Shown here: piece after piece, positions 386 through 63,626 of the stretch
Layout of the letters: the number at the start of each line of letters is the position of its first letter
Numbering within the stretch: the first letter of the stretch is position 1
Source: Branchiostoma floridae
Lineage: Eukaryota > Chordata > Leptocardii > Amphioxiformes > Branchiostomatidae
NCBI RefSeq assembly: GCF_000003815.2
Contig: NC_049992.1
Coordinates: forward strand, 13,307,105 to 13,371,104
Length of the DNA stretch: 64,000 nt
Reading direction: 5' to 3'
Notes under the pieces: generated by a model
What the model saw: only the letters and a program-made list of their open reading frames with translations
Databases searched by the model: none
Told to the model about the DNA's origin: nothing
Made by a program: the position numbers and the translations under genes

Positions 386-24299
<23,914 letters not shown>

Positions 24300-38476: not shown

Positions 38477-39015
38477 TCAGTCCTGTGTTTGTGTGACGTC
38501 CCCCTGCCCCTTGTCCCCAAGCCCCCCCACTTCCAACTCTTCTTTCTTTATAACTTCAAACCCGTTGTCACCATTAGTGGTATCAGTCCCTCCCCCATTC
38601 CCATCCCCATCTTCCGTCTGTTCTTCCATTTCCTGGTCTTCACTTTCCGACCCGTCTTCATCCTCACTTCCTTCCTCATCTTCATCTCCTTCTAGGTCGT
38701 CATTTCCGTCTTTTTCAGACCCTGATTCGTCCTGGTCCTTGGGAGTCTCCTCTCCCTTTTCCGTTGTTTCTTTGTCGTCTTCTTTTCTTTCCACATCTTC
38801 CACGTGTTCTTCCTCCCTCTCTCCCTTTGCTGTTTCCTCCGAGTCCTTCTGGTCATCCTTCTTGTCCTTGTCCTTGTCTGGTCCCTTGTACTCGTACAGA
38901 TAGAGTGGTCTGAAGGAGTCCAGGAAGCCGACGTCCGCGGTGAGGTTGGGGAGGAACCAGAAGTGGTGATGTCCTCCTGTTCCTGCCCAGATCAGGCAGA
39001 ACAGGATCAGACGGA
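38477..39015 (-). CDS. SEC62: SEC62 exon 8: end of span 2, signature motif and acidic tail
   Basis: Starts RLILFCLIWAGTGGHHHFWF, then LPNLTADVGFLDSFRPLY, then about 140 residues dominated by Asp, Glu and Lys, with NGFEVIKKEELE near the end. The stop codon is at 38477-38479. The last codon is followed by no further conserved sequence. Confidence 0.94.
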
Positions 39016-42000
39016 CTGGAATAAAAAACAGGAATACAACATGTTTACGAAAGTGAAACAATCTACATAGAAAAAAAGGAGCTGGGAGGGAAAACTGTAG
39101 CTTAGAACAAGAGACAACAACAGCATACAAGGAGAGAATAACTACAATAAATACGTTGTAAACGTTCTTTACTTTTACCATAAGCACATTTTGCCATCTT
39201 CCCTAACTGGAACTTGACTTTGTAATGGTTATGACTGATACATTTCATATTGATGAGAAATCTGAATGTCTAGTCAAGTCTTGCTACTAACAGTATCACC
39301 TTACCAAGTTAATGGCTGGCTAACACCTGATTTGTTAGTTAAATGGATGATGTGTTTATTTGTTGACTAGTAAATACTTGGTTTATTGCTAGAAAAATAG
39401 TCAAATTACATGTATATTGAAAGCGTGACTTACCGACAGCCAAGAACAGGATGAATCCGATGAAGAAGGCTGCGGCCAGGCTGAGATAGTACACGCCTTG
39501 TCGTGCCTCGTACGGCCACAGTGGGAACAACACCACAACAACGGCAGCAACAACTAGCGTAAGAACACACAAAACACTTTTAATCAAGTACACACACTTA
39601 ATGTTAACACTGTTCTGCAAATTCTACAGTTACTCCCAAAAATCTAACAATTCAAGCTGCTTTGTTCAACACTATTATAACACATATCAAACTAGAGTTT
39701 GGTGACCTCATCTACCTCCATGAAATATCTAGAGCTTTTGTAGTTATGCAAATGACATACAGTAACACTCTTACATGATTTATGCATGGTGGTGTCCATC
39801 ATTGACTAGCTTACACATGTGACATCACTCTGTATCATCTATCATGAAGCGCTTGTGTCATTTTTGCATTAATTATTCAAATAAGTTCCTCATTTTCATG
39901 TTTGGTATCTTATGTTCCACCAGTCATGAATTACATGTTACATTTATTGCAGTCCAGTAATGGAAAACAATGGAATTATATAAGTGCCTCATTAATTATG
40001 CAAATTAGGTATAAACACTAGTGAAAATTTAAGTTTGAAATGAATATTTCATGGAGGTAATATCAAATACCACAAGCCTGACGTTTCTCAGTCATATCAC
40101 TCAAGATAGAAACATTTGTCTTGAGTTCCTATAGATAGATTTAGTTAGTTATTACTGTGAGTCTAGACCCTGATATTTGGTAAAATCTGTTACTTACCCA
40201 GAGCCAGGCCCAGAGCAAAAGTCTTGGGGTGGATGGGGTCAAACACCCAGACATACAGCTGTGGGGACAGAAAAAAGCATGCTGCATTCATTCAGGAATA
40301 TCCTTTATATGTACAAGTGAAGAATCTTCAGCAATAATTAAAGATAAGATTTGTAAAGCTTGAACGGGATGAAAACACTGCTAATGTCCAGAACAGCAAA
40401 TAAATGCTGTGCATATGCGGATGAATGTTAGACATCTAGGTGATATTAACATACACAAGAGAACTGTTAGTCGAGCATCTGGATAGAATTGGAAGTGGCC
40501 AGACATCTGTATAAATTTTGTATTCTGATTTCAACACATTTTCCCGGGAAATTTTACCATCCTCATGTTTCTAGTTACTCATTACCCACGCTCGTACCCA
40601 GCGCCGCGAAGAAGCCATAGGTTTAGATTGTGGGCTCAACCAATACACAAATAAAACTATATGGAATCCACGGCTGTCATTTTGTTTTGTTTTGTTTTTG
40701 TCTCAATTACCTTAGCAAATCGCAAGTTGTGTGACCATTGTGTGCGTCTCTATACAACGTGTGACTGTAACGTTACCCTAGTTAGCTAGTATTTTCTACA
40801 GTTACCGGGGCGAAAAACAAGACGAAAGTTCACTATTTCGGGGGTAAAATGTTGTCACAATGGTGATACGTTATATCAAAGGGAAGTTTAAAATGTACCT
40901 AATTTGGTGGCGCTGCGAGGGTGTTAGATTACCCTTCTAGATTGCCGAGAGGGGAGTTATGTCACGGAAGGGAGTTTGCTACGGTAGGTTTATATCGCTT
41001 CCCCCAGCATGCTTTGCGCGGAAAAGATACGCTCGTACCCAGGTTACCCAGGACACAAAGACTTGGTAAACACGAAAAGGCGCCCCGCTATGTTCAGTGG
41101 GCCCGGGGGGTGGATCTAATTAAAGGACGCTGTGGAGGAGCGTGCTCATTACCTAAACTTCTGTGACCACACAAACCTCATTTGCATCCAAGAAGAGTTG
41201 TTCCTCGTGGAATTCCAACTTTATTTTCCTCTTGCCTTCCTTCTTCTTCTTTCCGCTGGGCGTGTCTTCTACACCCTCCTGGAAAAATGTCAAATCTTAC
41301 TTTCCATTGGACTCTCAATATACTATACTGTTACTAAGAAGTTATAGTAGACAGAGAACGTCTTAATTTTCAAACTTAGAATTTGAAACAATGTGGAACC
41401 ACGTTGTGTTGTAATGCAGGCAGAATTTGTGTTGTTGTGCTCCCCTGACATGATGACCACTTATATGTGAATACAGAGTTCTACATTAATTTGGTTCTCC
41501 TTTTAGTAGGGGTCCTATACACATTTCTCATGCAGCCGCTATGATAGATCAAAACCCAGGTCAATGAGGCAAACAAAAGACTGGCCATCATAATTAGCAG
41601 TTCAACAAATGATAGCATGGCAATTAGGAAAGTGCCCAATAAGAGAATGGCTGTCTTTCCATCAAATATTTGTATTATTATGTTTTTATTTTGCATCTCT
41701 TAAGGGACTATGGGATCAGTCTACACTTCTCTAAGTTGCTACATATTTGGGTATATAACACTAGTTATGATATTATAATTTGATCTTGTATTGTGAAAAT
41801 TTTTGTGGTTTGGGGGAAGACTAAATGGGAGCTGATTTTAGAAATACTTTTTGTCTATTTGCCTCATTGGCCTAATTTTCAATCTATCATGGCCGTCGTG
41901 TGAGAAATGTGTATTGGCGATATCACCACCCCCCTCCCCCATGTGTACCCAGAGTGTATACAACAGCAGGAAGAGAGAAGGTAGGCAGTGTAGGAGGAGT

Positions 42001-46459: not shown

Positions 46460-46560
46460 TTTGTCCAACACAGCAGGGGTGACGTAAGCATTAGCGCAGG
46501 CGCCTAGAGCCCACGGTGAGAGATCTCAAATAAAAACAAGGCTTTAAACCATTGAAAAGC
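46460..46560 (-). promoter_or_regulatory. SEC62: Candidate SEC62 promoter/5' leader
   Basis: Directly upstream of the ATG on the - strand lie ttacgtcacc (ATF/CREB-like) and ggcgcctgcgc (similar to an NRF1 site). Both are common in housekeeping promoters. Most of this segment is inside repeat unit A1, so it is present two further times upstream. The transcription start is not known. Confidence 0.45.
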
Positions 46561-49500
46561 CTTTCTTGGTGGGATTTTATGTGAAATCTGGGCATTTTGG
46601 GAGTGGCTGCAGTAGGAAAGAGCCTACACTGGTAGAATTAGTTGTAAAAAATGACCTTTCTCCATCGAGGGGGTTTCCGCACCCCCCTGAAATAGTGGTA
46701 TCGTCGCCAGAATGCTGTTTTCAGCCAAATGGGCCAATCCAAGGGCTCTAATTAGGGGGGTGTATCAAAAGATTAGCCGTATAGAAATTCTTGCCAAGGA
46801 ATTTGCCGAGACTGGACATATTAGGCTATCATTTGAAGGTAAGTTTGTATGGCTTGAACTTTTTATTCTTGAGATAATTGCATATTTGTTTCCTCAACTC
46901 TCCCATTGGAACGCATGTATTAGTGGCTGAAATTCTAATGGCCTCGTCTCCCCTGTAGTGATTCAGGTAGGCATGGATTAGGCCATTCCTGTTCATTTTA
47001 AGGGCTTTTTTGTCATGGATCTGTTACCTGAGCAAGGTATAGGGTTCAGGTGACTGTCATTTACTTGAGATTTACCCCATTTTTTGTTATTTTTGGCTCT
47101 CTTCCTTGTTTTTTAGCCATCCCTCCAATCAGTGCCAGACTGCAGACCAGGGACAGTGTACAGAGGACTTGATTTTGGTATTCTGGGGGTAAATTGTTGG
47201 GGGGGGGGGGGTGATTCCCCTATGGGAGGGGTCCTAGACCAGGTGAATGTTGTGATTTAGCCTTGCAACACTCTTTTTCATTCTTTTTGCCTTTTCTATG
47301 ATTGTCCCTATCCACACGAGTAGTCATTATAGACCCTTCAGGGCCCTTGAATAGACTTTAGGCTTGCCTTGAAAGTGTCTAGAAAGGGGATGTAGGAGTC
47401 TAAGTGAAGGGAACAATGTCTCCATTAGCTTAGGTGACCAACTTTTGGCTTTATTCACTTGTTTCTGTCAAATTCCACCTGTAGCCAGCATCCCTAGCCC
47501 AGGTCCACAGTGCAGGCCTGGCACAGGTAGGTCATCAATCCCCAGGGGAGTGTTTCTTATCAGAGGTCTTTGATATTGATGGTTTTTACTTCACACCCCT
47601 ACCCCGCAGTGGGTTATATGATTGACATCTGTCAATTGTGAACTTGAATTTACTTGTAGTGATTCAGGTAGGCATGGATTAGGCCATTCCTGTTCATTTT
47701 AAGGGCTTTTTTGTCATGGATCTGTTACCTGAGCAAGGTATAGGGTTCAGGTGACTGTCATTTACTTGAGATTTACCCCATTTTTTGTTATTTTTGGCTC
47801 TCTTCCTTGTTTTTTAGCCATCCCTCCAATCAGTGCCAGACTGCAGACCAGGGACAGTGTACAGAGGACTTGATTTTGGTATTCTGGGGGTAAATTGTTG
47901 GGGGGGGGGGGGTGATTCCCCTATGGGAGGGGTCCTAAACCAGGTGAATGTTGTGATTTAGCCTTGCAACACTCTTTTTCATTCTTTTTGCCTTTTCTAT
48001 GATTGTCCCTATCCACACGAGTAGTCATTATAGACCCTTCAGGGCCCTTGAATAGACTTTAGGCTTGCCTTGAAAGTGTCTAGAAAGGGGATGTAGGAGT
48101 CTAAGTGAAGGGAACAATGTCTCCATTAGCTTAGGTGACCAACTTTTGGCTTTATTCACTTGTTTCTGTCAAATTCCACCTGTAGCCAGCATCCCTAGCC
48201 CAGGTCCACAGTGCAGGCCTGGCACAGGTAGGTCATCAATCCCCAGGGGAGTGTTTCTTATCAGAGGTCTTTGATATTGATGGTTTTTACTTCACACCCC
48301 TACCCCGCAGTGGGTTATATGATTGACATCTGTCAATTGTGAACTTGAATTTACTAGAAGGGGTGACGTAAGCATTAGCGCAGGCGCCTAGAGCCCACGG
48401 TGAGAGATCTCAAATAAAAACAAGGCTTTAAACCATTGAAAAGCCTTTCTTGGTGGGATTTTATGTGAAATCTGGGCATTTTGGGAGTGGCTGCAGTAGG
48501 AAAGAGCCTACACTGGTAGAATTAGTTGTAAAAAATGACCTTTCTCCATCGAGGGGGTTTCCGCACCCCCCTGAAATAGTGGTATCGTCGCCAGAATGCT
48601 GTTTTCAGCCAAATGGGCCAATCCAAGGGCTCTAATTAGGGGGGTGTATCAAAAGATTAGCCGTATAGAAATTCTTGCCAAGGAATTTGCCGAGACTGGA
48701 CATATTAGGCTATCATTTGAAGGTAAGTTTGTATGGCTTGAACTTTTTATTCTTGAGATAATTGCATATTTGTTTCCTCAACTCTCCCATTGGAACGCAT
48801 GTATTAGTGGCTGAAATTCTAATGGCCTCGTCTCCCCTGTAGTGATTCAGGTAGGCATGGATTAGGCCATTCCTGTTCATTTTAAGGGCTTTTTTGTCAT
48901 GGATCTGTTACCTGAGCAAGGTATAGGGTTCAGGTGACTGTCATTTACTTGAGATTTACCCCATTTTTTGTTATTTTTGGCTCTCTTCCTTGTTTTTTAG
49001 CCATCCCTCCAATCAGTGCCAGACTGCAGACCAGGGACAGTGTACAGAGGACTTGATTTTGGTATTCTGGGGGTAAATTGTTGGGGGGGGGGGGGTGATT
49101 CCCCTATGGGAGGGGTCCTAGACCAGGTGAATGTTGTGATTTAGCCTTGCAACACTCTTTTTCATTCTTTTTGCCTTTTCTATGATTGTCCCTATCCACA
49201 CGAGTAGTCATTATAGACCCTTCAGGGCCCTTGAATAGACTTTAGGCTTGCCTTGAAAGTGTCTAGAAAGGGGATGTAGGAGTCTAAGTGAAGGGAACAA
49301 TGTCTCCATTAGCTTAGGTGACCAACTTTTGGCTTTATTCACTTGTTTCTGTCAAATTCCACCTGTAGCCAGCATCCCTAGCCCAGGTCCACAGTGCAGG
49401 CCTGGCACAGGTAGGTCATCAATCCCCAGGGGAGTGTTTCTTATCAGAGGTCTTTGATATTGATGGTTTTTACTTCACACCCCTACCCCGCAGTGGGTTA

Positions 49501-50020
49501 TATGATTGACATCTGTCAATTGTGAACTTGAATTTACTAGAAGGGGTGACGTAAGCATTAGCGCAGGCGCCTAGAGCCCACGGTGAGAGATCTCAAATAA
49601 AAACAAGGCTTTAAACCATTGAAAAGCCTTTCTTGGTGGGATTTTATGTGAAATCTGGGCATTTTGGGAGTGGCTGCAGTAGGAAAGAGCCTACACTGGT
49701 AGAATTAGTTGTAAAAAATGACCTTTCTCCATCGAGGGGGTTTCCGCACCCCCCTGAAATAGTGGTATCGTCGCCAGAATGCTGTTTTCAGCCAAATGGG
49801 CCAATCCAAGGGCTCTAATTAGGGGGGTGTATCAAAAGATTAGCCGTATAGAAATTCTTGCCAAGGAATTTGCCGAGACTGGACATATTAGGCTATCATT
49901 TGAAGGTAAGTTTGTATGGCTTGAACTTTTTATTCTTGAGATAATTGCATATTTGTTTCCTCAACTCTCCCATTGGAACGCATGTATTAGTGGCTGAAAT
50001 TCTAATGGCCTCGTCTCCCC
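46472..50020. repeat. Near-identical tandem array A-B-B-A-B-A upstream of SEC62
   Basis: Unit A (482 bp) is at 46472-46953, 48356-48837 and 49539-50020. Unit B (701 bp) is at 46954-47654, 47655-48355 and 48838-49538. Copies match almost base for base, including a run of 13 G in each B; one difference seen is tagacc versus taaacc (47232, 47937, 49120). A1 begins agcagggg and A2/A3 begin agaagggg, so A1 holds the original junction with SEC62. The open frames in A (61 and 72 codons) are the same sequence repeated three times. Either a very recent duplication or an assembly error. Confidence 0.95.
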
Positions 50021-51125: not shown

Positions 51126-51161
51126 ATGTACTGTGGAGTGATTTTAGCGATTGGAGTGGCG
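51126..51161 (+). CDS. TNFR-A exon 1: signal peptide
   Basis: Twelve codons (MYCGVILAIGVA) and a perfect gtaagt donor, phase 0. TNFR-B and TNFR-C have signal exons of 36 and 42 nt at the same place, which supports this start. Confidence 0.8.
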
Positions 51162-54100
51162 GTAAGTGAGAAAAGTGACGAAGTTTTTAAGTGTTTACAC
51201 AGTAGCGCTAAGTGCGTTCTCCGATTTCCACTCAGTGCAACTCGTGTTGCGCAATGTCGACTGTAGGATTCCAAAACTTTGCCGGAATCATGATTTAAGG
51301 GAATAGATTTGTTTTCGTGAACATGTAGACAGTTCTAGACAACATTTAACACATAGGAATCACGTAGGTGTTGAGTTGAACCCCGTAAAAGTACGAACAG
51401 CAAATCACGGTGACGTCACTCACTGGGTGGCCGGAGTGAGAGATAGATCTAGATCTATACGTTTTGCTTATTTTAGCGAAACGGCGCTCTTCCAAAGCCA
51501 TCAAAGGTTATAAAACGTGAGCATGTTAGTCTTCGGTGTTCTGCATTGCATTCCAAAGAGCCATTTTTATGATGGCGCGTTTGGAAAACTACATGTACGC
51601 CAAAAGTTTCCCGTGACTCCTGGCCTGGCCCCGTTAGTCATTTCCGGTTGTTGCAGCTGGCGTGTTTAGCACACGTTGTTTTCGTGCTCCTGTGAATCGG
51701 TCGTGAACTTCATTACCCTTAAGTTGAATGGTTTTATAATCTAAACCTCATATGATGATACATTAATACAAACTTTGTAGTTTTTGCTGTTTTACGGAAC
51801 GCCGTGCTTGGTGCGGCATGGGACGGCTGGGGAATTCCGATGACGTCACCAGCAATCTAGGGCCTGCTGTTCGCCACGCTCCCAGGGTCACGGGCGGGGC
51901 AATGGGGTGGGCTCTTGTTGACAGTTAAGATTTCAAAGGATTTCAAAATCGTAGAAACATGCGTGTTACCTACTTTCTGTTTCCGTAAAAATGCCATGAC
52001 AAATATAAGACGTCCCCGTATTAAAGAAATGTTCCATTAAACAACAAGCAATGTCAATCAATACCCCTTTGATAACTTGGGATAGAAAATTCTAGAAAAG
52101 AGTGATTGAATATAAGTTTGAAAGTATGCAGAAACTCGGAGGACAAAACAACAGTGTCAGACGATTTTTTGTTGTTTATCAATTCTTCAGGTTCTTACTG
52201 GGGTTGTGAGCGGTGATGGACAAGATGAACATTTAGCCACGCCCCCTCCTCCGTGGAGACATGGCGATCTGCTCTGTGATTGGTGTCCACCAGGACAACG
52301 CATGAGCAGTCCCTGCACCGAGCAGTCGCAGACGCAGTGTGTCCCATGTCGGGAGAACGAATATGCCGAGTACTACAACCACCTGTTGGAATGTCGGCTG
52401 TGTAGGGCATGCGTCAGGGTAAGTCTAGAACCCCAAAATTGCCATCTCTCTTCAAATAAGATTTCAGATGTCTTTGGCTATTAGTTGTGAAATGGTACAT
52501 ACTTTTATTTGAGATGAATGTCACTCAAGAGTTCAAACTATTTTAATAATTGCACTGTAACTATGCAGCAGTTGGATACCCAATCATAAATAAACTGAAA
52601 TCATACTCATGTGTAAGTCACCCTTTGTCTTCAAAATACAACTTTCCTCTAAATCAATTATTGAGTTAAGACCTCAGTGTTCTAATTCAACGCCTTTCAT
52701 GTTTTTCCCAAAGCATCACGAACACGACTCGGAAAACTGCACCTCCACCACCAACAGAGAGTGTGAATGTGACCCAGGCTACTACTTATCCGGTGACGTC
52801 TGTGAAGCTCACACGAAGTGTTCCGTCAGATACGGGGTGAAGGAACAAGGTATTGGTGTTGGAACACATGTAGAAAATGCTAACTTTTCCAAACATTGGA
52901 GCATAAAAGTTGGTTAATTTACCCTATGGTACGTTGTATAATTGAATTGTAAATGAAAATACCTAACAGCAAACCAGCTAGTCATATCATGTTTGTTAAC
53001 AGAAAATGACAGTGAACAGTGGTAAATTAATCATTTTATTTCCAGTTAACGTTACATCTTCTACTCTCTGACCATGATAACTTTGAATTCACATTCAGGA
53101 ACGCCCACAAGTGACACCAAATGTGCGCGCTGTGAATCCGGGACCTTTTCTGACGTCATTTCCAGTACAGAGGTCTGTAAAGACCACACCGACTGTACGG
53201 ACTTTGGGCTGTGTGTAGTGGAGAAGGGAAACAGACGTAAAGACAACACCTGTGGAAACTGTACAACCAACGGGACAGGTAGGATACTTAATAGTATATT
53301 CGTTGCATTTTCGCTTGGAAAATAACTTCGACATGTACTTTTTGTTGTTTTGTATATGTCAATTATAAAGAAATAATCGTGCTACTTTAATCAAGTAACA
53401 TAGCACGCTTAAAACTGTTCATTTTCAAAAGCGTTGTTCAGGTTTTATAGATAATGGTATTTTAAACGGTATTCAACAAACCATAGTAGCAAAAGAAGGG
53501 ACATCAAATAGAATAGCACCAAAGCTAAATGAATGACCAAATGTACTTCGTTTTCAGTGACCATTATGACAACTGTCTCTACACCGACAACGGCTTCCAT
53601 AGGCAACTCATCCATAGATACAGGTATGGCATTATATGCATGTTCAAATAGAGTCAATAAAGTGACGTAGTGGCCGTCCTTTTTTAAAAGTGTGATTGGT
53701 TTTGAGTATAGTGTATAATGACAACGTCTGTGATGTTTTTCAGTGACCAAATATTTTAACTGGTCTTGTCTGCGTTTTACAGAAAACTCCACAGCTTTGG
53801 GCAACATTGAGACCCCGACAGATCCATTTACAAGGGGATACATTACACTAGGATGTGTATGTGGTGTTGTCGTCTTACTAGTCTGTGCAGGCGTAGTGAA
53901 AAGGCACTGGCTCCGTGCAAAGTTCAACGAACTTTTGGGGCGAACGTCACAGGACGGACAAGGTCAAAGTCAGGTGGACGGCGGCGTGACCATGCAGCCA
54001 CTGATGACGCAGCGCTCTGGACAGGCGCAAGCAGTTTCTGGAGAGGCACAAGCCGTTGGTGACCGACCGACCGATAGTGTACTCGTTCTGGGATGCTGTC

Positions 54101-54573
54101 CTATCCGCTCTAGTCCCAGACTGCGAAGAGGAGTGTCACGGAATGACGAACGTATGTATCTTCATTTCCCTCGTATATTACTTATCACTAAGTCTTAAGA
54201 CAATGTTTAATCAACAAGGGACTACAGGAATCGTTTTGAAAATTGCTTAAGTCAATTTGTTTCCCATCATGACTTTTCAGACGTTCGTGCAAGGATGGTG
54301 ACGACTGATGACCTGCCCGCCATCGCGGCTGACATAGGGGGCGCATGGAGACCGCTGGGGCGGAGACTGGGCTTCAGTGACGGCAGGCTGGACGGCTTCG
54401 AAAACGACTACCGTTACCTGGAAGAGATGACTCACCAGATGCTCCGCAAATGGATCAACGAGAGCCGGGAAGAAGCGACAAGAGGCAAGCTTGCGGATGC
54501 GCTTGTGGAAGTGAATAAAGAAGCCGTGGCCAGGACTCTGCTCGGACTCGCAATCGGCGAACACAGCGAATAG
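51126..54573 (+). CDS. TNFR-A: transmembrane death receptor with OPG/DR6-type ectodomain
   Basis: Exons 51126-51161, 52191-52418, 52714-52849, 53099-53278, 53558-53623, 53783-54151 and 54281-54573 join in phase to 435 aa. A short hydrophobic leader starts MYCGVILAIGVA and runs into VLTGVVSG. Four cysteine-rich repeats follow (LLCDWCPPGQ; CVPCRENEYAEYYNHLLEC; CECDPGYYLSGDVC; KCARCESGTFSDVISSTEVC), then a Thr/Ser stalk, a span at about 235-254 and a death domain from about 345 (WRPLGRRLGFSDGRLDGF). The repeat spacing and words such as LLCD-C-PPG and HTDC follow vertebrate osteoprotegerin and DR6 (TNFRSF11B, TNFRSF21). The family binds TNF-type ligands at the cell surface and signals through death-domain adaptors. 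It has a membrane span and one death domain, so in architecture it is DR6-like rather than a secreted OPG. The ligand is unknown. Confidence 0.9.
51411..51418. promoter_or_regulatory. Perfect CRE octamer in TNFR-A intron 1
   Basis: TGACGTCA, the palindromic ATF/CREB site, 250 bases after exon 1. A second copy is at 51841-51848. Confidence 0.5.
51829..51848. promoter_or_regulatory. NF-kB site next to a CRE in TNFR-A intron 1
   Basis: GGGGAATTCC (51829-51838) fits GGGRNNYYCC exactly and is followed after two bases by TGACGTCA (51841-51848). Adjacent Rel and ATF sites are typical of stress-induced enhancers. Function here is inferred. Confidence 0.5.
52191..52418 (+). CDS. TNFR-A exon 2: first cysteine-rich repeat
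   Basis: 228 nt, the same length as TNFR-C exon 2. Reads from VLTGVVSG through LLCDWCPPGQRMSSPCTEQS to CRLCRACVR. Acceptor cttcag, donor gtaagt. Confidence 0.92.
52714..52849 (+). CDS. TNFR-A exon 3: cysteine-rich repeats 2-3
   Basis: 136 nt, identical in length to TNFR-C exon 3. Reads NCTSTTNRECECDPGYYLSG and ends GVKEQ with one base of a glycine. Confidence 0.92.
53099..53278 (+). CDS. TNFR-A exon 4: cysteine-rich repeat 4
   Basis: 180 nt in all three paralogues. Reads TKCARCESGTFSDVISSTEV, then CKDHTDC and GNRRKDNTCGNC. Confidence 0.93.
53558..53623 (+). CDS. TNFR-A exon 5: stalk
   Basis: 66 nt, phase 1 at both ends, a Thr/Ser-rich stalk (TTVSTPTTASIGNSSI), likely O-glycosylated. TNFR-C has a 66-nt and TNFR-B a 60-nt stalk exon. 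Confidence 0.82.
53783..54151 (+). CDS. TNFR-A exon 6: membrane span and cytosolic tail
   Basis: 369 nt. Reads ENSTALGNIETPTD, the span YITLGCVCGVVVLLVCAGVV, a stop-transfer KRHW and a Gln/Gly-rich tail. In TNFR-C an intron divides this region; TNFR-B keeps one exon. Confidence 0.88.
54281..54573 (+). CDS. TNFR-A exon 7: death domain
   Basis: Reads DDLPAIAADIGGAWRPLGRR, then LGFSDGRLDGFENDY and HQMLRKWINE, ending at TAG 54571-54573. The Trp in the first helices and the Leu spacing fit a death domain; p75NTR has GDTWRHLAGELGY at this point. Confidence 0.92.
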
Positions 54574-54929
54574 ATGTGCCAAAGACCTAAGCTGCTACCT
54601 GTTAGAAACCAGGCCTTCCTACGGCCGGGGGTACGGGGATCGTAGAATTAGGCAAAAAATCGGGAAATTAGCCATAGGAGTCAGTTCATGCTAAGGTAAA
54701 TGTTTCCCCTCTGGTCGGCCGTTCAACTCCTCTGGCAAATTATTCTCCCTAGTATAGCCAGCGTAGTCGACGTCAGTATGATAGAGTAGTACAGAATACT
54801 GCATCAGATGTTTCCGTTCCTATCAAATACTTATGTCAGGTGTCTTGTATAATATTTGTTGTTTCGTGGTGCCGTTGATCTAAGCCATTTCGCTTAAGTG
54901 AGGCACCACTCTGTACTGTTGTATGTTGC

Positions 54930-54935
54930 AATAAA
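54930..54935 (+). terminator. TNFR-A polyadenylation signal
   Basis: AATAAA about 360 bases after the TNFR-A stop, followed by GT-rich sequence (cgttgttgttacagtg). Confidence 0.6.
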
Positions 54936-55694
54936 GAAAGAAGAAATGGACATCGTTGTTGTTACAGTGAGCCTGACAGCAAAGCGCTGGCAATAGATGT
55001 CGGAAAATGAAATGGAAAAATTCCATAATATATGCGTTGCACATTGTTGCCATAGGATCGATTTTTGTATATATTTGTACAAAGTGAAACAAATAGATTG
55101 ATAAGTTATTACAGCTTTTGGTGTTTTTCTTCTAGATACATTTACATCGGTAGTACCCTATCTGTGATAACAATATTCCCTGCCGGTCAAACATTCGCGT
55201 GGCATATACATAAATAATAATTTTAAAGATATTGCCTTCACGTAAAGATATTCAAGTCTCGGAGGTGTTGCCAACTTTTTGTGCAGTCACTATTTTTTGT
55301 ATAACTATTTTGTATGTAAAAAGATATCAAAAGTGCAAAACGTAGCAGAAACTCGAGCTTGTAATATGTCATCAGCAACAATTAGACAAACATCACAAAA
55401 TATAACAAGTAGCAAATTGAGTCAACTTATCATTTCGAACGCATTTAATCCAAGACAACTGTATATTCCATTTGCTGCAGCAAATAACATTAAGTCTAAA
55501 TTCCAGCAAATGTTGTCATGATCTGTTCAGGTCCAACTTGATATCACAGCTGTTTTCTTAAAGTTGACAACAGACATGTATTATCTTCCTATTTGTACGC
55601 TCAAATCTAGTTGATACATATCATTACAACAAGGGAATGAATATGTAAAAAAAACACTTCATTACTGTTCAAAAATCCAAAGACATACTATAGA

Positions 55695-55700
55695 TTTATT
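55695..55700 (-). terminator. TNFR-B polyadenylation signal
   Basis: tttatt on the + strand is AATAAA on the - strand, about 105 bases past the TNFR-B stop codon. Confidence 0.5.
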
Positions 55701-55805
55701 TCGAAAATATATCAAAAGTGTATGTTGTTATTTGATGAAGGCACATCAATCATTTTGAGAAGTGGAATTTCAATAGAAGTGATGAATAGTATCTTGACAG
55801 GCGGA

Positions 55806-55985
55806 TCAAGAGGAAGGGTTTTGTCCGGATCCGTTCCTCGCGAAAGTAAACAGCTTCTCTGCCACATGACGCAGTCCGACGTTCTCCAATGCGTCACAAA
55901 GGTCCCCAACTGTGGGGGGCTGAGACTCCTCTCTCCTTACATAGGCTCGCAACATCTGATACACGATCTCCCTCTGTCCGTTGAG
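55806..55985 (-). CDS. TNFR-B exon 7: death domain, second half
   Basis: Reads LNGQREIVYQMLRAYVRREE, then TVGDLCDALENVGLRHVAEK, ending in TGA at 55806-55808. The helix spacing continues the first half without loss. Confidence 0.87.
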   Translation of the reverse strand, partial: LNGQREIVYQMLRAYVRREESQPPTVGDLCDALENVGLRHVAEKLFTFARNGSGQNPSS

Positions 55986-58900
55986 CTACATATGTATAAG
56001 AACGTATAACAGGAATTGAGATTAGCAAATTTAAGAAGTCAGTATTGTGGTTTCATAGTTTTGATGAAATTGCATATTTTAAAACCTCAATACATAGAAA
56101 GATCGTATAGCAAGGTTTGAGTTCTGTCACAGTGAAAACAACTCTACCATCTATTATTGAACTGTACTTTACATGAAATTGTTCTGTGGTGAAGTAAATT
56201 GAAGTAGAACACATGTACACCTGATAGTCATGGTTGAAGCCGTCACAGTTTCCCTCTGAGAAGTCCAACTGTTCCCTGGCTAGCTGTCTCCAAAGGTCGC
56301 CAACTTCACCACAGATATGGCCAACATGATCCAGTGTCAAACTCATCGCAAATAAATCTGTAAAGTATAGATAGTTGTCGTGAAGACACTTGTATATAGA
56401 TTTTACAGTAGCGTAATTTTGACAACGTTTTGGTGAGTGTAAATAGGTATTAAGAAGAAAAAGGCAAGAGATAAAAGAAGGAATTTCAAAAAGAAAAAAA
56501 AAATCAAGGATGTGCACGGTAAATCTACCTTCGGGTGCAGACATGGATTGGGTTGTCTCTCTACCATCCACAGAGTCCGTACCACCGGCGCGGTACCTCA
56601 TCCCTGCTGCTCCGCGGAGTAAGAGCTGTGTGTTCTCGGTGTTTGTGTCGTTAGCCGGCTGTTGGTCGGGGAGGTGGGCTGGCGGCTGGCGCCGAGACAT
56701 CAGATTTGTTCCCTCCGTTTCAGCGGCAGTGTTATCTGAACTAGACGATGTACGGACCCTACACGGTAGTGGTGTGTCTTTTTTCGTTATGGCAACAACA
56801 AAGTACACAATAAGTCCGATTGGAACTGCAATGAGAACAATAAGTGCGAAGAATCCAGGGTTGGAGAAGTTGGGCTGAATAACGCCAGCCGTGACGTTAT
56901 TCTTCGTTGTAATATTGCCTGGAGAAAAGTAGAAAAGAACATTCGATCACTTGTAAACATGTATTTGATGGGGATACAAATTTATCTACTGATGCGGTAG
57001 ATAATGTATCATGTACATGTGGTTTTACAAGCACTGATGTAATCTTTATATTCAACTAATCACCGGTAGTCTTGTAACATCAAATGTTTTGAATATAATT
57101 ATTTGCATGAAATACAACAATGAGTCATGTTCGCTTACCTGTAGCGATTGTCGCATTGTCAACAGTTTCCGGTGTATTGGTGCCCCTTGCGTTGGCAACT
57201 ATCGGAAAAAAATAGTTGACATGATATTGCAAATATTTGCTGACTGTTCGCGTATTTGCTCCCCCAAGAATGCAAATATGCTGTTTCAACAACCGTTTTA
57301 GAACCAAGTACATTATCTATAAAAACATCATTGAGGTTTAAAAAAAGAATAGAAAACATTCATAAAATGCGATCTGAAGAAACTTTTTACCTACGATAAA
57401 ACCACAACATGACAAAAAGTTATTCCCACCTGTTCCATTTGTTACACACGTGCCGCACAAGTTGTCCATCCTACGGTTTCCCCTGCGCACCACACACTCG
57501 TCCCACACACTACAGTTGGTGTGACTTCTGCACGGCTCCGTGGCAGATATCGTGCTGGAAAACGTACCCGTCTTACACCGGCTGCATTTCGTGTCCTTCT
57601 CCGGTGTGCCTTGGAATTGTAAGGTCAAAAGCATTTCTAAAAGTCTACATTCACGTGAGAAAACTTAGTACGTTTCTCTAACGTTACATGAAAATGTGAT
57701 AATTTATAAAGCTTGTCGTATTTTCACTAACCCACGTGACTGCTGGAAGCAAACAAGTACATTGTAGACGTTTCAACTGACTTTCAACAAACAGACGTAC
57801 CCGGCATAAATGATGGCTAACAAAATACAGCAACAACAACAAAAGGGCTCTCTTTGAAGCAATAAACTTTAACATCTACTCAAACGTTGTGTATAAATAT
57901 GTACAGCTTTTCCCTAGCAGGTATATACAATGAAAGTGCTTAGAAAAGAAGCTTGTCTTATGTAAATGAAATCGTCGGTGTTTACACAACAGACTCACAA
58001 CTAAACTGGCATACCTGCACGTCCGTAAACAAAACGAAATCTCTGAACGTATTTTTGATAGGATCACTTCTTTCAGTAAAGTTGGTGACTAGGAGTATGA
58101 CTACTAGTATGTATGGTGAAAATGCAGGAAAAAATGATAATCATTATTGTCAAGGAATAACTAATATTAGTGTTATGAAGTAATTTGACGATGAGACTGT
58201 GCAACGATAGAGCTATCTATTGTGACGGACAAGTAAAAATATGTGTCCTTACCTTGCTTTGTTACGCCGTGCCCGATTGGACACTTTTTGTGAAGAAGGC
58301 AGAACTCAAACAGTCTGTAGTAACCATCGTCACATTGGCATATCCTGTTGTTTGTAGCCGAACATTCTATCTTAACATGTTCATGTTCGCGGCGGCAGTC
58401 CGAACAACGCCGACACTCATATTCTCGGTTATAGTGTTCCGTGTACTCGTCCCATGGACAGGGTAGACACTCAGTAGCAGTCCGTTCCGTGCATACCCTG
58501 TTCATATAAAAACCTGGCTCGCACCAGTCACAGAACAGAATGGTGCCAGATAGCGGATCGATGTGACGCCATTTTTCGGGACGCTTGTCTTGACTTGTCG
58601 ACTCAGCACCGATGACAAAAGCCTGGGGAAGACAATAGAGAAAAAGATATAATCTTATCATATCAAATTGATAATTTCTATCGATATCTTTAATCTAGTA
58701 CTTAGCATTATATGGCTTCATGTGTCGAGAAGGTTACTCCCCTCCCCAACAAAAATATATACTTCCGCGTTCTCTTAAGGGCATAAACCACTTGAACATT
58801 GCATGATGCTAACAACACTATACACAATATAATACATAACATTTTGTGGTAATATACATTCTATATATTCCTCATTAAGTCCACAATAAGTATAGTAACA

Positions 58901-59071
58901 AAATTAATGACAGAAATGTTTTAAAGAACTTTTGACCTCGCCCCGTTGCGTAACGTTGCGCAATCTGCATCGGAAGCATTGTAGAAGACGTTACCGCCAC
59001 TTAAAGAAAACCAAATGTCAGGAGTCCTTACTTACCGGGACAAACAATATCAGGGAGGCTTTTGATATCAT
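55806..59071 (-). CDS. TNFR-B: transmembrane death receptor, inverted paralogue
   Basis: In transcript order: 59036-59071, 58253-58622, 57430-57609, 57139-57198, 56529-56918, 56221-56357 and 55806-55985, 450 aa. The leader is MISKASLILFVP then AFVIGAES. The four cysteine-rich repeats include FCDWCEPGFYMNRVC, CLPCPWDEYTEHYNREYEC, CQCDDGYYRLFEFC and KCSRCKTGTFSSTISATEPC. A stalk, a span at about 238-258 (FFALIVLIAVPIGLIVYFVV), a Ser/Thr/Gln tail and a death domain (GDLWRQLAREQLDF ... VYQMLRAYVRRE) follow. Like its neighbours it is an OPG/DR6-type receptor with a death domain. It lacks the intron between repeats 1 and 2 and has an extra phase-0 intron inside the death domain. The ATG at 58659-58661 gives an alternative in-frame start but reads through what looks like an intron polypyrimidine tract. 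Confidence 0.88.
56221..56357 (-). CDS. TNFR-B exon 6: death domain, first half
   Basis: Reads LDHVGHICGEVGDLWRQLAR, then EQLDFSEGNCDGFNHDYQ, aligned to the death domains of the paralogues. Ends in phase 0, where the others have no intron. Confidence 0.85.
56529..56918 (-). CDS. TNFR-B exon 5: membrane span and cytosolic tail
   Basis: 390 nt. NITTKNNVTAG, then the span FFALIVLIAVPIGLIVYFVV, then a polar tail with QPPAHLPDQQPANDTNTEN. Donor gtagat. Confidence 0.85.
57139..57198 (-). CDS. TNFR-B exon 4: stalk
   Basis: 60 nt, phase 1 both ends. Reads ANARGTNTPETVDNATIAT, with one N-glycosylation sequon (NAT). Acceptor cgatag, donor gtaagc. Confidence 0.78.
57430..57609 (-). CDS. TNFR-B exon 3: cysteine-rich repeat 4
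   Basis: 180 nt as in both paralogues. Reads TKCSRCKTGTFSSTISATEP, then HTNCSVWDECVVRRGNRRMD and CGTCVTNGT. Confidence 0.92.
58253..58622 (-). CDS. TNFR-B exon 2: fused cysteine-rich repeats 1-3
   Basis: 370 nt, equal to 228 + 136 plus two codons, so it combines exons 2 and 3 of the paralogues. Acceptor tctattgtcttccccag. Reads WRHIDPLSGTILFCDWCEPG to CPIGHGVTKQ. Confidence 0.88.
58946..58963. promoter_or_regulatory. Paired C/EBP-type sites in TNFR-B intron 1
   Basis: TTGCGTAA (58946-58953) and TTGCGCAA (58956-58963) lie two bases apart. The second is the palindromic C/EBP consensus. Location about 75 bases inside the first intron. The function is inferred. Confidence 0.4.
59036..59071 (-). 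CDS. TNFR-B exon 1: signal peptide
   Basis: Twelve codons, MISKASLILFVP, then gtaagtaagg on the - strand. The length (36 nt) and phase match TNFR-A exon 1. It is too short for an ORF scan and was found by looking for the paralogous exon. Confidence 0.75.
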
Positions 59072-59713
59072 ATTGGCACATTATTACGCTGCAAATCCTA
59101 TATACAAAACCTAGATATTCCACCAAACGTCCAGTCTGCATACAGGACGATTTTTACATGTCTGGGCAAGTTAGGTGAATTTACCGGAACAGGTGTCAAA
59201 GGGCAGTACCTTAAGACCGCACGGACATGTGAATGTTGTTTAGTTATCTAAGCCATACAATTTTATGTTTATGACCGCGTTTCATATGTACAGTTCATTC
59301 TATTACCACTGATTATGCTTCAAACATGTTGATACAACAGTTGGTCTTATTTACTACTTAGTTCACTGCAATCTGAGACGTCATTTCACCATGAGAATAT
59401 GCTGGAATTCCTCTAAGACGAGGCCCAATTGTTTTTATGCGTCACGAAAAGACAGCAGGGCTAAGTTCGTAATTGATCAAATTATGCAATCCAAAACTTC
59501 TTGTAACGTTACTGTACTGCCTTTTATATTGGCCAGTGAACTACAGGTCAATGAACTTTAACCTTTAACTTGATTCAAAAAGCACGCAACATTCCGTGTT
59601 GGGACGGTAGAGGTGGGAGGGCGGCTGTCATGTAGCGGGATTTTTCCCGAACGTTCTAACACATTTAGAGGTAGATTCTACTCTTCTATCACAAGGTTCA
59701 GCCAGGAGTGGAC
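59072..59713. promoter_or_regulatory. Shared head-to-head promoter region of TNFR-B and TNFR-C
   Basis: Only about 640 bases separate the two start codons. It includes ggaattcc (59404-59411) and gggatttttccc (59637-59648, about 65 bases before the TNFR-C ATG), both close to Rel/NF-kB words but not exact 10-mers. No TATA box is obvious. Confidence 0.45.
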
Positions 59714-59755
59714 ATGTGGGCACTGTACACAATATGCTGTGGAATTCTATTGACC
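59714..59755 (+). CDS. TNFR-C exon 1: signal peptide
   Basis: 14 codons, MWALYTICCGILLT, and a gtaagt donor, phase 0. It joins INLLVRCEADEPP to make a typical leader. Confidence 0.82.
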
Positions 59756-62700
59756 GTAAGTAAGTTACTGTATTTAACGTTTAAATATATATGATGCTAA
59801 AACATCGGGTGTAGTTTCGATAACGTTACCGTTATAACGTTATATAGCAGGGGTTATCCCTGGCACCTCCTTGGTTATGATCAGTACGTAACGTTAAATC
59901 GAGTAAGTACATGTAACGTTACATGCTTCCAAGATACACATAAGTGTATTTTAACGTCATTTTAAAATGACATCTTTGGTATATAGCAATCCACTGTCCT
60001 CCGATTTTATCAATATCACTGCACTGTCAACCTCCCAGACCATCAGAAACTAAAACAGCAAACATGTTGGCCAGCTAATGTAACGTTATATGACAATCCA
60101 GAGTAATAGGCACAGTAAAATCTTTGCTACAAGTTTGCTATATTGATATAGTTTGCACTTGAGACAATTAAGTGACGTCAGACTTGCACGGCGCCGACAT
60201 TACCTCACCTGATGTGTTCAGTGAACCGTGATGAATATAAACAAGACTGATAGCTCTGTACTGTTCTCTGTATCTGAATCTATATAGCCGGTATAACTGC
60301 CCGAAAAGCTTCAGCCCAACAACAGGTGGTTCTGTGATACTATCACAGTACTAGACTGAACGACTTGTCACACATAAACCTTTGCACATTTAGTTGTAAT
60401 GAAGGTGATCCTATAGTAATAGGCAATGTATTCCACTTAACGATATTTCAGGGGAAAAACTAATATTTGAACAGCTTAATAACTCTGGTTACTCGAAGGC
60501 ATGACTACTTCTTGTTTTGCAGATTAATTTGTTAGTAAGATGTGAGGCAGACGAACCACCCCCCAAATGGGAATACTACAACCCGCTGTCAGGTGTAACA
60601 CTGCTCTGTGATTGGTGCGCTCCTGGGGAGTTCATGGTCACGGAATGTACGGAAACAACCGTCACACAGTGTCGCACATGCGCAGAGAACGAGTACACAG
60701 AACACTACAACCACGTCAGGGAGTGCTTCCGATGCAGGGAATGTCTGAAAGTAAGTGTCATTGTCATAAAAATCATTTTCTTTAAACATTACATGTATTT
60801 TATTTCATTTCCCATTGTGCGGTAGAAGGCCATATCGCAACACGAAGAACGGCAAGCTTTTTATATTTCAAATAATCGTGCATGTCTCTAGCAACCATAA
60901 CATCAGTTAGTTAAAAAACGTAGTCTGTCTAGTACTATTTCAGTATAGTAGTGTGATAACAGTGATTTTACCCCCTGTGAACCCAGGCCCACGAGCACGT
61001 CTTGTTAGGTTGCACACCTACCAACAACAGACAGTGCGTGTGTGAAGACGGCTACTTCCTGGCCTCAGAGTTCTGTTTTCAGCACACGAAATGTCCCATA
61101 CGCTATGGGGTCGTACAGAGAGGTACAGTATGCCTGTCTTTCTTAGATTAAATGTTAGACGGTTAACGACAATATTTGAAATGGAGATAATGCATAGTTT
61201 CATTGTGATATTACTTTCCCATTTTAGAATATATCCCTATTTTTGAGGATGCGTTATGCTTTAAAACAATGAATGCCATTTGCATTTCTCTATGAGTGCT
61301 AGCCTTACTGAAAAAAAGTCAAGAATTGTACATTTGAAAATATTCTTTCTCCTAAGGTACCCCCTGGAAGAACACCAAATGTAGACGGTGCAGTTCAGGC
61401 ACATTCTCTAACGTGGAGTCCAGCATGGCCACATGTAGGAACCACACGGACTGTGGGCCCATGGGGCTGTGTGTCACACAGAGGGGCAACAGGGGGGTGG
61501 ACAACGTCTGTGGAATATGTCCCCACTATAACACAAGTAAGGATGTATTTCGTGAACGTTGGGCTTACAGATCTAGATGAGATGAACACAAAATAAGATC
61601 TGGAACCGCTACCCAAACGCAATTTCTATCAATTCAATGCACGCTGTATTTATGAGTGGATTCCTAGTTCAACCCATTCTGTGGTAGATTTGTTGTCACA
61701 TTAAAGTGCACTTGCCCATCTTTTACACATAAACTACAGCAGCAGCACCAAAGTCTGAAGACAAAACATCTGTATCTACGGCAGGACCTACAGAGTTTGT
61801 CTCCGGTATGTGTGGCTTCAGTATCGGTAATGTTTGAGAGTTTGGGGATAACTAAAAGAATGCTATGGTATTATGGATGTCTTGGTGCACAGAATAAGAA
61901 TAAAATAAGGATATGCTAGATGACCAAAGGTAAGCTTTACCGGTCGACTATTCAAATATGCAAAGTAGATATCTTACACGTAGTCTGTGTAACACAAACT
62001 CTGCTGTCCAGGGCTGTAACTGACCCCTCCCCGCCGGCGGATGCTGGGCGGGCTGCTATAAGCGAGATTTAATCAGGCTATCTTACACGGTATTGCATTT
62101 AGACAAATGGGACGTCGGAAGCTATAGTTTATTATGCGTTTGTCAATCCTAAAATGATATTTTATATCAGCACCTAGGCAAGAAGACAACAACAATACTC
62201 GGAAACACGTCATTGTGACAGATGTAAGATGGGAGCCGATAGTTTACGTCACCATTGCCATAGTCATCCTTGCAGCAATCATAGGTATGTAAGGCACGGA
62301 TTTAATTCTGTAATTAGTTTCGTCAGGTTAGAAGAATTGGAATTGGCAAATTCTTCTTTACAACGATTCTTTCCTGCGTATGGGACGTTACGATTAACCG
62401 GGACGAGGGTGATACAAACTTAGTCACGTTTGGGATTCTGTTTCGCCGCAAAAGCGCCACCTATATCGGCTTCATAAAGCATAGATAAGCAGCACCCCAG
62501 TAAAGCTCTGAGTAACGTGTCTGACAAGCATTGAAATTTAAGCAGGAAAGATTCACTAGTTGTGAAGAAGAATATATCTTATTTCTTCACGTTGATGCTT
62601 GAAAATTTGTTCTGCCACATAAATATAACCATGTAATAACTTGTTACGACATGTTACGAAAGATTTCAAGAAAACTTCTTGTTCTTGTTTTCTTATTTTT

Positions 62701-63626
62701 TTGTTTTTAAGAAAACAATGGAATTTTGATGACACAGTACACGACATGTTACGAAAGATTTCAAGAAAACTTCTTGTTCTTGTTTTCTTATTTTTTTGTT
62801 TTTAAGAAAACAATGGAATTTTGATGACACAGTACATCGATTGATGTGAACTTAATCTTGGATGTTTTTACAGTTGCCGTTTGCTGCATCGTAAAGACAT
62901 TACGAAGACGACGGTCTGATACATCACATGGACTTCCGCCCCTACAGACAACGTTAGCAGGGAAGACACCCATAGTATCGTTTGTACATGTAGGAAAACC
63001 AAAAGGAAAGGAAAGTCCCCCCACCGAGCCTGACCAAGTAGGCTTCGAGACCCACCACACCCATGCTGCTGCTGCTGCAAGACAGACAACTTCCACTAGG
63101 AGAAACCCGTTAGCAATGACCCGTTTGGGTACTCCAACTGTGCCGAGACTTAGGAGAACAAAATCACGACAAAACGACGATGGTGAGTTTGCTACCGATA
63201 GTGTATCACAAAATGCAGATCTAAACACCTGAGCTACCTTAAACGGTCCTCTTAAAAACGTTGTAATTGCACGGTGATTAAAGGTAAGAAATTCATATTT
63301 ATAACACACTATTACTAATGCCAATGTTGTGTTACCAATTTCCAGAACTACGCCGCCGCCCCGGCACCCTAAATGATGTCGAACTCATCGTGGACGACAT
63401 CGGCGGCACCTGGAGGCACCTGGGCCGGGACCTGGGCTTCTCTGACGGCCGGCTGGACGGGTTTCAGAATGACTACCCCCTACAGCTGAGGGAAGCCGTG
63501 TTTCAGATGCTGCGCACGTGGATAGAGGAGAGGAGAGGGGACGTAACATTAGGGAGACTCATGGACGCTTTGAACAATGCGGGGAAACCGGAGCTGGCTG
63601 AGGCTCTACTTGAACAAACATCATAG
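59714..63626 (+). CDS. TNFR-C: transmembrane death receptor with OPG/DR6-type ectodomain
   Basis: Exons 59714-59755, 60523-60750, 60987-61122, 61357-61536, 61740-61805, 62171-62284, 62874-63182 and 63346-63626, 451 aa. Leader MWALYTICCGILLT into INLLVRCEA. The ectodomain is very like osteoprotegerin (PPKW-YYNPLSGVTLLCDWCAPG; CVCEDGYFLASEFCFQHTKC; KCRRCSSGTFSNVESSMATC; RNHTDC). The span is at about 242-263 (IVYVTIAIVILAAIIVAVCC), followed by a basic tail with a run of five alanines and a death domain from about 368 (WRHLGRDLGFSDGRLDGFQ). Vertebrate OPG is secreted with two death-domain-like modules, DR6 has a span and one; this gene has the DR6 plan. An intron inside the membrane span is unique to this copy. 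Confidence 0.92.
60173..60180. promoter_or_regulatory. Perfect CRE octamer in TNFR-C intron 1
   Basis: TGACGTCA within the first intron, as in TNFR-A. Shared position class rather than shared flanking sequence. Confidence 0.45.
60523..60750 (+). CDS. TNFR-C exon 2: first cysteine-rich repeat
   Basis: 228 nt. Reads WEYYNPLSGVTLLCDWCAPG to CFRCRECLK; osteoprotegerin has PPKYLHYDEETSHQLLCDKC. Acceptor ttgcag, donor gtaagt. Confidence 0.94.
60987..61122 (+). CDS. TNFR-C exon 3: cysteine-rich repeats 2-3
   Basis: 136 nt. Reads CTPTNNRQCVCEDGYFLASE, then CFQHTKCPIRYGVVQR, closely like osteoprotegerin around ECKEGRYLEIEFC. Confidence 0.93.
61357..61536 (+). CDS. TNFR-C exon 4: cysteine-rich repeat 4
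   Basis: 180 nt. Reads TPWKNTKCRRCSSGTFSNVE and RNHTDCGPMGLCVTQRGN, with RGVDNVCGIC. Confidence 0.93.
61740..61805 (+). CDS. TNFR-C exon 5: stalk
   Basis: 66 nt, same length as TNFR-A. Reads AAPKSEDKTSVSTAGPTEFV. The acceptor is an acagcag tandem site, so a one-codon shift is possible. Confidence 0.78.
62171..62284 (+). CDS. TNFR-C exon 6: juxtamembrane and first part of membrane span
   Basis: Reads APRQEDNNNNTRKHVIVTDV, then RWEPIVYVTIAIVILAAII. The intron falls inside the hydrophobic span, which the next exon completes with VAVCCIV. Confidence 0.85.
62646..62835. repeat. Perfect 95-bp tandem duplication in TNFR-C
   Basis: The unit starting acgacatgttacg and ending gatgacacagtac occurs at 62646-62740 and 62741-62835 with no difference seen. 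It ends 38 bases before the exon 7 acceptor and doubles a T-rich stretch. Confidence 0.95.
62874..63182 (+). CDS. TNFR-C exon 7: cytosolic tail
   Basis: Reads VAVCCIVKTLRRRRSDT, then a basic tail with KGKESPPTEPDQVGFE and HAAAAARQ. Acceptor tttacag, donor gtgagt. A 95-bp tandem duplication lies just upstream. Confidence 0.85.
63346..63626 (+). CDS. TNFR-C exon 8: death domain
   Basis: Reads LNDVELIVDDIGGTWRHLGR, then DLGFSDGRLDGFQNDY and QMLRTWIEERRGDVTLGRLM, ending at TAG 63624-63626. It closely matches the TNFR-A death domain. Confidence 0.94.

Follow-up and report, generated by a model that had tools for sequence, protein, structure and literature searches.

Here we describe a cluster of receptor genes of the tumour necrosis factor (TNF) receptor superfamily that begins in a 64,000-nucleotide stretch of the Branchiostoma floridae genome (hereafter the window; C14:13307105-13371104) and extends past its right edge. 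The cluster comprises five genes in the order A(+) B(-) C(+) D(-) E(+) and measures 20 kb overall, with D and E lying within 8 kb of the window's right end. The death-receptor layout of the superfamily, consisting of a signal, cysteine-rich domains (CRDs), one membrane span and a cytoplasmic death domain, is found in A, B, C and D. Gene E carries a signal, four CRDs and a death domain and has no membrane exon. We propose that A to D are functional, locally duplicated type I death receptors of the OPG/DR6/DcR3 type outside the cell and that E is their soluble decoy neighbour, a reading to which we assign a probability of about 0.72. Its basis is gene structure, domain content, homology and the missing membrane exon of E, and from these we infer ligand, adaptors, secretion and expression.

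Gene structure and extent of the cluster

Three receptor genes, A(+), B(-) and C(+), had been proposed in an earlier note made from the window alone, and full gene models, Pfam domains and single membrane spans confirm them as intact, with the first base of A at 51126 and the last base of C at 63626 exactly as given there. All 19 introns of the three models are of the GT...AG type, and the frames are open from ATG to stop. The exon lengths cited as a sign of common descent are likewise exact: the first coding exon measures 36, 36 and 42 nt in A, B and C, the next coding part is 228+136 nt in A and C and a fused 370 nt in B, and an exon of 180 nt in all three genes is followed by one of 66, 60 and 66 nt. 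Corresponding introns agree in phase. The genes differ in two respects: the membrane and linker part occupies a single exon except in C, where it takes two, and the death domain a single exon except in B, where it again takes two.

At the protein level, Pfam TNFR_c6 (A, E 5.4e-15; B, 1.3e-15; C, 5.2e-20) and Pfam Death (3.7e-12, 3.6e-11 and 1.6e-11) all score above the curated cut-offs. Pfam finds three TNFR_c6 stretches in A, three in B and four in C at the threshold used; the four repeats that we assign to each gene are read from the alignment with OPG. Each protein begins with a signal-like first exon and has one further hydrophobic span, with a mean hydropathy of 2.8-3.3 over 19 residues.

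To the right of C the cluster continues. When the A, B and C proteins were searched against 264 kb (the window and 100 kb on each side), all matches with E up to 0.01 fell within 52.2-70.5 kb on the window scale. In gene D, exon 2 is fused (379 nt) and the death domain is split like that of B, the closest relative of D within the cluster. In E, the last CRD exon is spliced straight onto the death-domain exon; the intron of 241 bp between them is interrupted by stops in every frame and shows no hydrophobic span on visual inspection. Past the signal, no 19-residue stretch of E reaches a mean hydropathy of 0.8. The death domain of E (34 bits against a cut-off of 22.6) is weaker than those of A to D. 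Because its model contains no membrane span, E looks secreted and is probably a soluble protein. Local duplication, as claimed in the earlier note, is supported as the origin of the cluster; the single inversion invoked there is too simple, since orientation alternates over all five genes.

B and C, and likewise D and E, stand head to head with start-to-start gaps of 642 bp and 682 bp, and the B/C interval is a possible shared promoter. Comparison of the B/C and D/E intergenic stretches revealed no similarity of note. The D/E stretch (L019:3257-3938) contains a single NF-kB-like site, GGGGAATCCC with matches overlapping it, which could be due to chance; none was found in the B/C interval or in the 1 kb upstream of A. 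An intron of C contains a perfect 95-bp tandem duplication (window 62646-62836).

Kinship of the ectodomains and death domains

The ectodomains were compared with structures in the PDB, with human and mouse receptors and with three partly read genes from elsewhere in the genome (F, G and H, described below). In the PDB search the C ectodomain matched OPG (1e-39), DR6 (7e-31), DcR3 (3.5e-27), CD40 (4e-18) and TNFR2 (6e-18), and the best match of B was OPG as well (1.8e-43); the ranking for both is OPG, then DR6/DcR3 (7e-31 to 3.5e-27), then CD40/TNFR2 (1.4e-20 to 3.9e-16). The E ectodomain ranked OPG (4.6e-47), DcR3 (6.1e-43), TNFR2 (1.5e-31) and DR6 (5.2e-31). Against human and mouse OPG, A scored 104-109 bits, B 147-152, C 133-137, E 156-165 and F 168-169. 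In a fixed row set, A, B and C scored 98-105 bits against DR6 and DcR3 and 77 or less against the other seven receptors, and among the receptors in 12 human and mouse rows, OPG, DR6 and DcR3 scored highest with A. Human DR6 had no preferred gene among A to H (99-107 bits).

Cysteine positions separate the same groups in a 20-row alignment of eight amphioxus rows (A-H), five OPG/DR6/DcR3 rows and seven rows of other receptors. Column 19, part of the first CRD1 disulfide, holds a cysteine in 0/8, 0/5 and 7/7 of these rows, respectively. The CRD3 cysteines of columns 98 and 106 are missing in all 13 amphioxus and OPG/DR6/DcR3 rows and both present in CD40, TNFR2, LTBR and HVEM; outside OPG/DR6/DcR3, RANK has only that of column 106, and TNFR1 and NGFR have neither. 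An extra CRD4 cysteine occurs only in A, B, C, D and G (5 of 20 rows) and is absent from H. Because of the scores and the missing cysteines, assignment of the predicted A to D ectodomains to the OPG/DR6/DcR3 type is supported, in agreement with the earlier note. Its further impression that C is closest to OPG does not hold, as B scores higher and E and F higher still. Trees do not favour a grouping of C with OPG (12.5 log units worse, p 0.085, in 15 rows; 7.8, p 0.23, in a smaller set; neither below 0.05), and B with OPG alone gave p 0.082 in the 15-row set and p 0.031 in a smaller set.

The union of A, B and C claimed earlier is recovered in ectodomain trees of 15 rows (80/57) and 13 rows (76/72) and, in wider company, in the 20-row tree, where A-D, G and H form one clade (91/88) and E and F another (83/86). 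The group of OPG, DR6 and DcR3 with the amphioxus genes received 79/84 (15 rows), 38/69 and 73/79 (10- and 13-row sets), 90/90 (without F) and 88/89 (20 rows); it was broken in the concatenated tree, where restoring it was 5.5 log units worse (p 0.18).

The death domains tell a different story. PDB matches of the A, B and C domains were led by RIPK1, FADD and TRADD. Among 12 human domains, they scored 41-43 bits against RIPK1, 9-17 against DR6, which ranked 6th or 7th, and 5.2 or less against OPG. The D domain scored 50 bits against RIPK1, 30 against FADD, 26 each against DR5 and TRADD and 21 against DR6, and neither OPG domain scored above 5.2 bits with the single death domain of any of A to D. 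Trees recovered no clade of A-C with RIPK1 and FADD (7.3 log units worse, p 0.08). The modelled fold of C's death domain is only fair (mean pLDDT 69), and its best Foldseek matches were FADD and RIPK1, none reaching E 0.001. An OPG/DR6 type for the death domains of A-D therefore runs against the scores, RIPK1 and FADD being the closest human domains; trees reject neither assignment (A-C tree: DR6, p 0.26; OPG, p 0.16). With OPG-type scores outside and RIPK1/FADD-led scores inside, kinship is thus mixed: in the predicted A to D proteins the exterior is of OPG type and the death domain is not, which calls for caution before DR6 or OPG is used as a name for genes like these.

Origin of secretion and alternative readings

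A search of the whole genome (431 contigs; 513,431,437 bases) with the E ectodomain found 33 matches, of which 21 are on C14, 8 on C15 and 4 elsewhere; 14 of the 21 on C14 lie in the cluster and the rest near 6.43, 11.2 and 15.2 Mb. Three genes outside the cluster were read in part (Table 1). The parts of F, a partial reading not spliced in full, lie on one strand within 5 kb, and F is the closest to E among the genes compared (ectodomain 196 bits, death domain 39 bits). In H, a membrane span and the start of a caspase domain share one open frame, and the two caspase pieces joined score 8.5e-40 in Pfam; its ectodomain is predicted to be of the B/D branch. Because the tree joins E to the membrane gene F, the secretion of E probably arose apart from that of vertebrate OPG, by loss of the membrane exon from an F-like gene, which we regard as a lead. 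The earlier note had likened the cluster to the pre-vertebrate state that gave rise to secreted OPG and membrane DR6: a secreted-looking, OPG-shaped gene does stand beside the membrane receptors, but E pairs with F in the 20-row tree and so need not be the forerunner of OPG.

A secreted decoy that predates vertebrates and was inherited by them, with E as the direct orthologue of OPG and DcR3, is unlikely, although much in E recalls these proteins. It matches human OPG (165 bits) above A-D (127-144 bits), it is the best match of both DcR3 and TNFR2 among A to H, and it lacks a membrane span; the best human match of its death domain is OPG domain 2 (18.9 bits; next DR5, 13.0), with an LPGK-V stretch in both. 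Grouping E with OPG and DcR3 is also not rejected in sets without F (p 0.46 for the ectodomain, p 0.27 concatenated). Against this stand the closer match of E to a membrane gene and, in the 20-row set with F, rejection of E+OPG+DcR3 to the exclusion of F (p 0.033, one of many uncorrected tests); in that set neither EF+OPG+DcR3 (p 0.20) nor a clade of all amphioxus genes (p 0.27) is rejected. Slightly less credible still is a reading of the cluster as a duplicated DR6 gene (TNFRSF21), with A, B and C as its co-orthologues. DR6 has the same membrane and death-domain layout, and trees place ABC with it at 86/91 (15 rows) and 83/95 and 82/88 (10- and 13-row sets), or ABCD at 82/67 (without F). However, the DR6 branch is very long (2.7-6.1 changes per column), its link to A-D drops below 80 support once F, G and H are included, A-C score higher against OPG than against DR6, and their death domains are far nearer to RIPK1. 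Moreover, A-C end shortly after the death domain, where DR6 has a further C-terminal region; grouping ABCD with DR6 costs 2.6 log units in the concatenated tree and is not rejected (p 0.18). Finally, one intron of C carries a tandem duplication, as decaying or unexpressed duplicates might, yet all five modelled genes keep open frames, GT/AG sites, the family cysteine columns and their death domains, which makes decay very improbable.

Our preferred reading, functional OPG/DR6/DcR3-type receptors with a soluble neighbour, has several observations weighing against it. The ABC clade was not recovered in the 10-row set (by 0.35 log units), the smaller trees joined A-C to DR6, TNFR2 fell with E, OPG and DcR3 in the concatenated tree (81/93), and deep nodes are weak, with several alternative clades unrejected. 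In its favour, of the 19 OPG residues listed as touching RANKL in an excerpt of PMC12333066, 7 are conserved in B, 6 each in C and D, 5 in E and 4 in A, but the count discriminates little, as DcR3 keeps 5, RANK 4, CD40 3 and DR6 1. The comparison of death domains covered human ones only, although at least 150 matches to this domain occur in the host genome. Trees of the death domains are too poorly resolved for a sister to be named, and likeness to RIPK1 and FADD may reflect only the canonical nature of those domains.

Genomic neighbourhood and comparison with known systems

Table 1. Receptor genes and neighbouring features. Positions are on the window scale unless a contig or flanking locus is named; exons of B run from high to low.
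Feature	Position	Strand	Description
TNFR-A	51126..54573	+	7 exons (51126-51161, 52191-52418, 52714-52849, 53099-53278, 53558-53623, 53783-54151, 54281-54573); 435 amino acids; signal, CRDs, membrane span, death domain
TNFR-B	55806..59071	-	7 exons (59071-59036, 58622-58253, 57609-57430, 57198-57139, 56918-56529, 56357-56221, 55985-55806); 450 amino acids; death domain split across last two exons
B/C start-codon interval	59072..59713	.	642 bp, head to head
TNFR-C	59714..63626	+	8 exons (59714-59755, 60523-60750, 60987-61122, 61357-61536, 61740-61805, 62171-62284, 62874-63182, 63346-63626); 451 amino acids
Gene D	67256-64340 (L019:3256-340)	-	465 amino acids; membrane death receptor
Gene E	67939-71093 (L019:3939-7093)	+	305 amino acids; signal, four CRDs and a death domain; lacks a membrane exon
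Gene F	C14:6.43 Mb (L039, L030)	-	E-type ectodomain, long linker, membrane span, LPG-bearing E-type death domain
Gene G	C15:3.16 Mb		Similar to H as far as a run of N
Gene H	C15:15.65 Mb (L036, L041)		B/D-type ectodomain; TNFR-caspase hybrid
GATA zinc-finger open frame	12050..12328	+	26.5 bits, just below cut-off 26.8; taken as upstream atrophin exon
Atrophin (RERE/ATN1 type) exons	22150..23910	+	Pfam Atrophin-1 at 22150-22452, 22714-23301, 23404-23790
Sec62 exon	38480..39202	-	PF03839, 2.2e-16; between atrophin and receptor cluster

Another gene of the window, 27 kb from the cluster, encodes an atrophin (Atrophin-1, 1.6e-40 at 22597-23910). Three of the six Atrophin-1 matches in the genome belong to it and the other three are short ones elsewhere (32 bits against a cut-off of 29.9), so that it is the genome's only atrophin gene beyond a short match. 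In human, ATN1 lies at 12p13, near TNFRSF1A, LTBR and CD27. On human 1p36 the order is TNFRSF9, PARK7, ERRFI1, RERE (a table of PMC2360241), and excerpts of PMC4880288 place human TNFRSF1A next to VWF and rat Ltbr, Scnn1a, Vwf, Vamp1 and Eno2 in one region. Because an atrophin gene lies close to the cluster and both human atrophins lie near TNF receptor genes, the link hints that the cluster marks a pre-vertebrate TNF receptor locus. We tentatively suggest, at somewhat less than even odds, that this locus was the source of the vertebrate receptors and that OPG-type decoys arose more than once by membrane-exon loss, in vertebrates and here (E, from an F-like ancestor). Membrane and apparently secreted OPG-type receptors beside an atrophin marker offer a concrete outgroup for the origin of OPG, DR6 and DcR3, which trees by themselves hardly reveal. 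At this locus, synteny and expression can test if decoy secretion is old or arose convergently, and by what route TNF receptor clusters grew in the genome duplications.

Beyond the receptors, window scans covered 10 chosen open frames, 107 of 512 by length and 129 of 136 on the plus strand left of 13.2 kb; atrophin, GATA and Sec62 stood out, and no ELM2 or SANT exon was found among the frames scanned. In the flanks, a scan of 10 of the 2,348 open frames yielded no vertebrate synteny marker. The left flank has two hyaluronidase (Glyco_hydro_56) open frames (L011:848-1342 and L011:7235-7738), an SRCR exon lies in a flank at L009:7159-7494, and to the right of the cluster a 1000-codon open frame (L021:6295-9294, minus strand) has no Pfam match at E 0.01. 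Between Sec62 and A (window 46472-49838), 300-nt stretches occur in two groups of three; members of a group are 100% identical, and the spacings are 701, 1183 or 1884 bp, reflecting recent duplication or an assembly artefact. Neither Rfam nor tRNA scans gave a match in the window. The octamer TAACGTTA, typical of amphioxus, is present in 14 copies, where equal base use would give 0.98, in keeping with the earlier supposition of a cephalochordate host.

If A to D act as their layout suggests, a trimeric TNF-family ligand would be bound mainly by repeats 2 and 3, bringing the cytoplasmic death domains together; the clustered domains would recruit adaptors of the FADD, RIPK1 or TRADD type through contacts between death domains, and the output would run through caspase-8 or NF-kB. 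E would compete for the ligand as a secreted decoy in the fashion of OPG. Amphioxus FADDs were reported active in HeLa cells (excerpt of PMC10923776, citing Yuan 2010).

Among known receptors, TNFRSF11B (osteoprotegerin, OPG), which regulates bone in vertebrates, gives the best PDB match to the B, C and E ectodomains and lacks the same cysteines. It is secreted and has two death-domain-like regions, whereas A to D have a membrane span and one RIPK1/FADD-like domain each, and so lack the traits of an OPG orthologue; E is OPG-shaped but has a single death domain. TNFRSF21 (DR6) is a membrane death receptor whose ectodomain type is that of A-D, but its death domain is not close to those of A-C and it has an additional C-terminal region. 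TNFRSF6B (DcR3) has the ectodomain type of the cluster and is soluble like E; it has neither a membrane span nor a full death domain, whereas A to D have both. Bbt-TNFR1 and Bbt-TNFR2, reportedly TNF receptors of Chinese amphioxus, are cephalochordate TNF receptors, as are A-F. The first coding exon of TNFRSF11B is short and ends in phase 0 (30 nt in human; c.30+5, excerpt of PMC12333066), as in the cluster genes. A size of 370 nt for human OPG exon 2 (c.31-400), which would equal that of exon 2 of B, carries no weight here, as the same excerpt gives amino acids 11-123, which does not fit.

Excerpts of the amphioxus literature count 10 TNF receptors in B. floridae, four with a death domain (PMC4979521), and describe a B. 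belcheri gene annotated TNFRSF6B that rises after poly(I:C) (PMC5752451). TNFR-caspase genes with cDNAs (Brafl1_82667 and relatives; excerpt of PMC2575513) have the layout of H, with a caspase inside the cell in contrast to the death domain of A-D. Titles and abstract openings of papers found by full-text search name no such cluster, secreted amphioxus OPG-like gene or atrophin link, which is no proof of novelty, and excerpts of PMC7205035, PMC3196919 and PMC2772990 hold nothing on this cluster. The cluster genes are of a known kind; the features of note are the secreted-looking sister, the mixed domain kinship and the synteny with atrophin.

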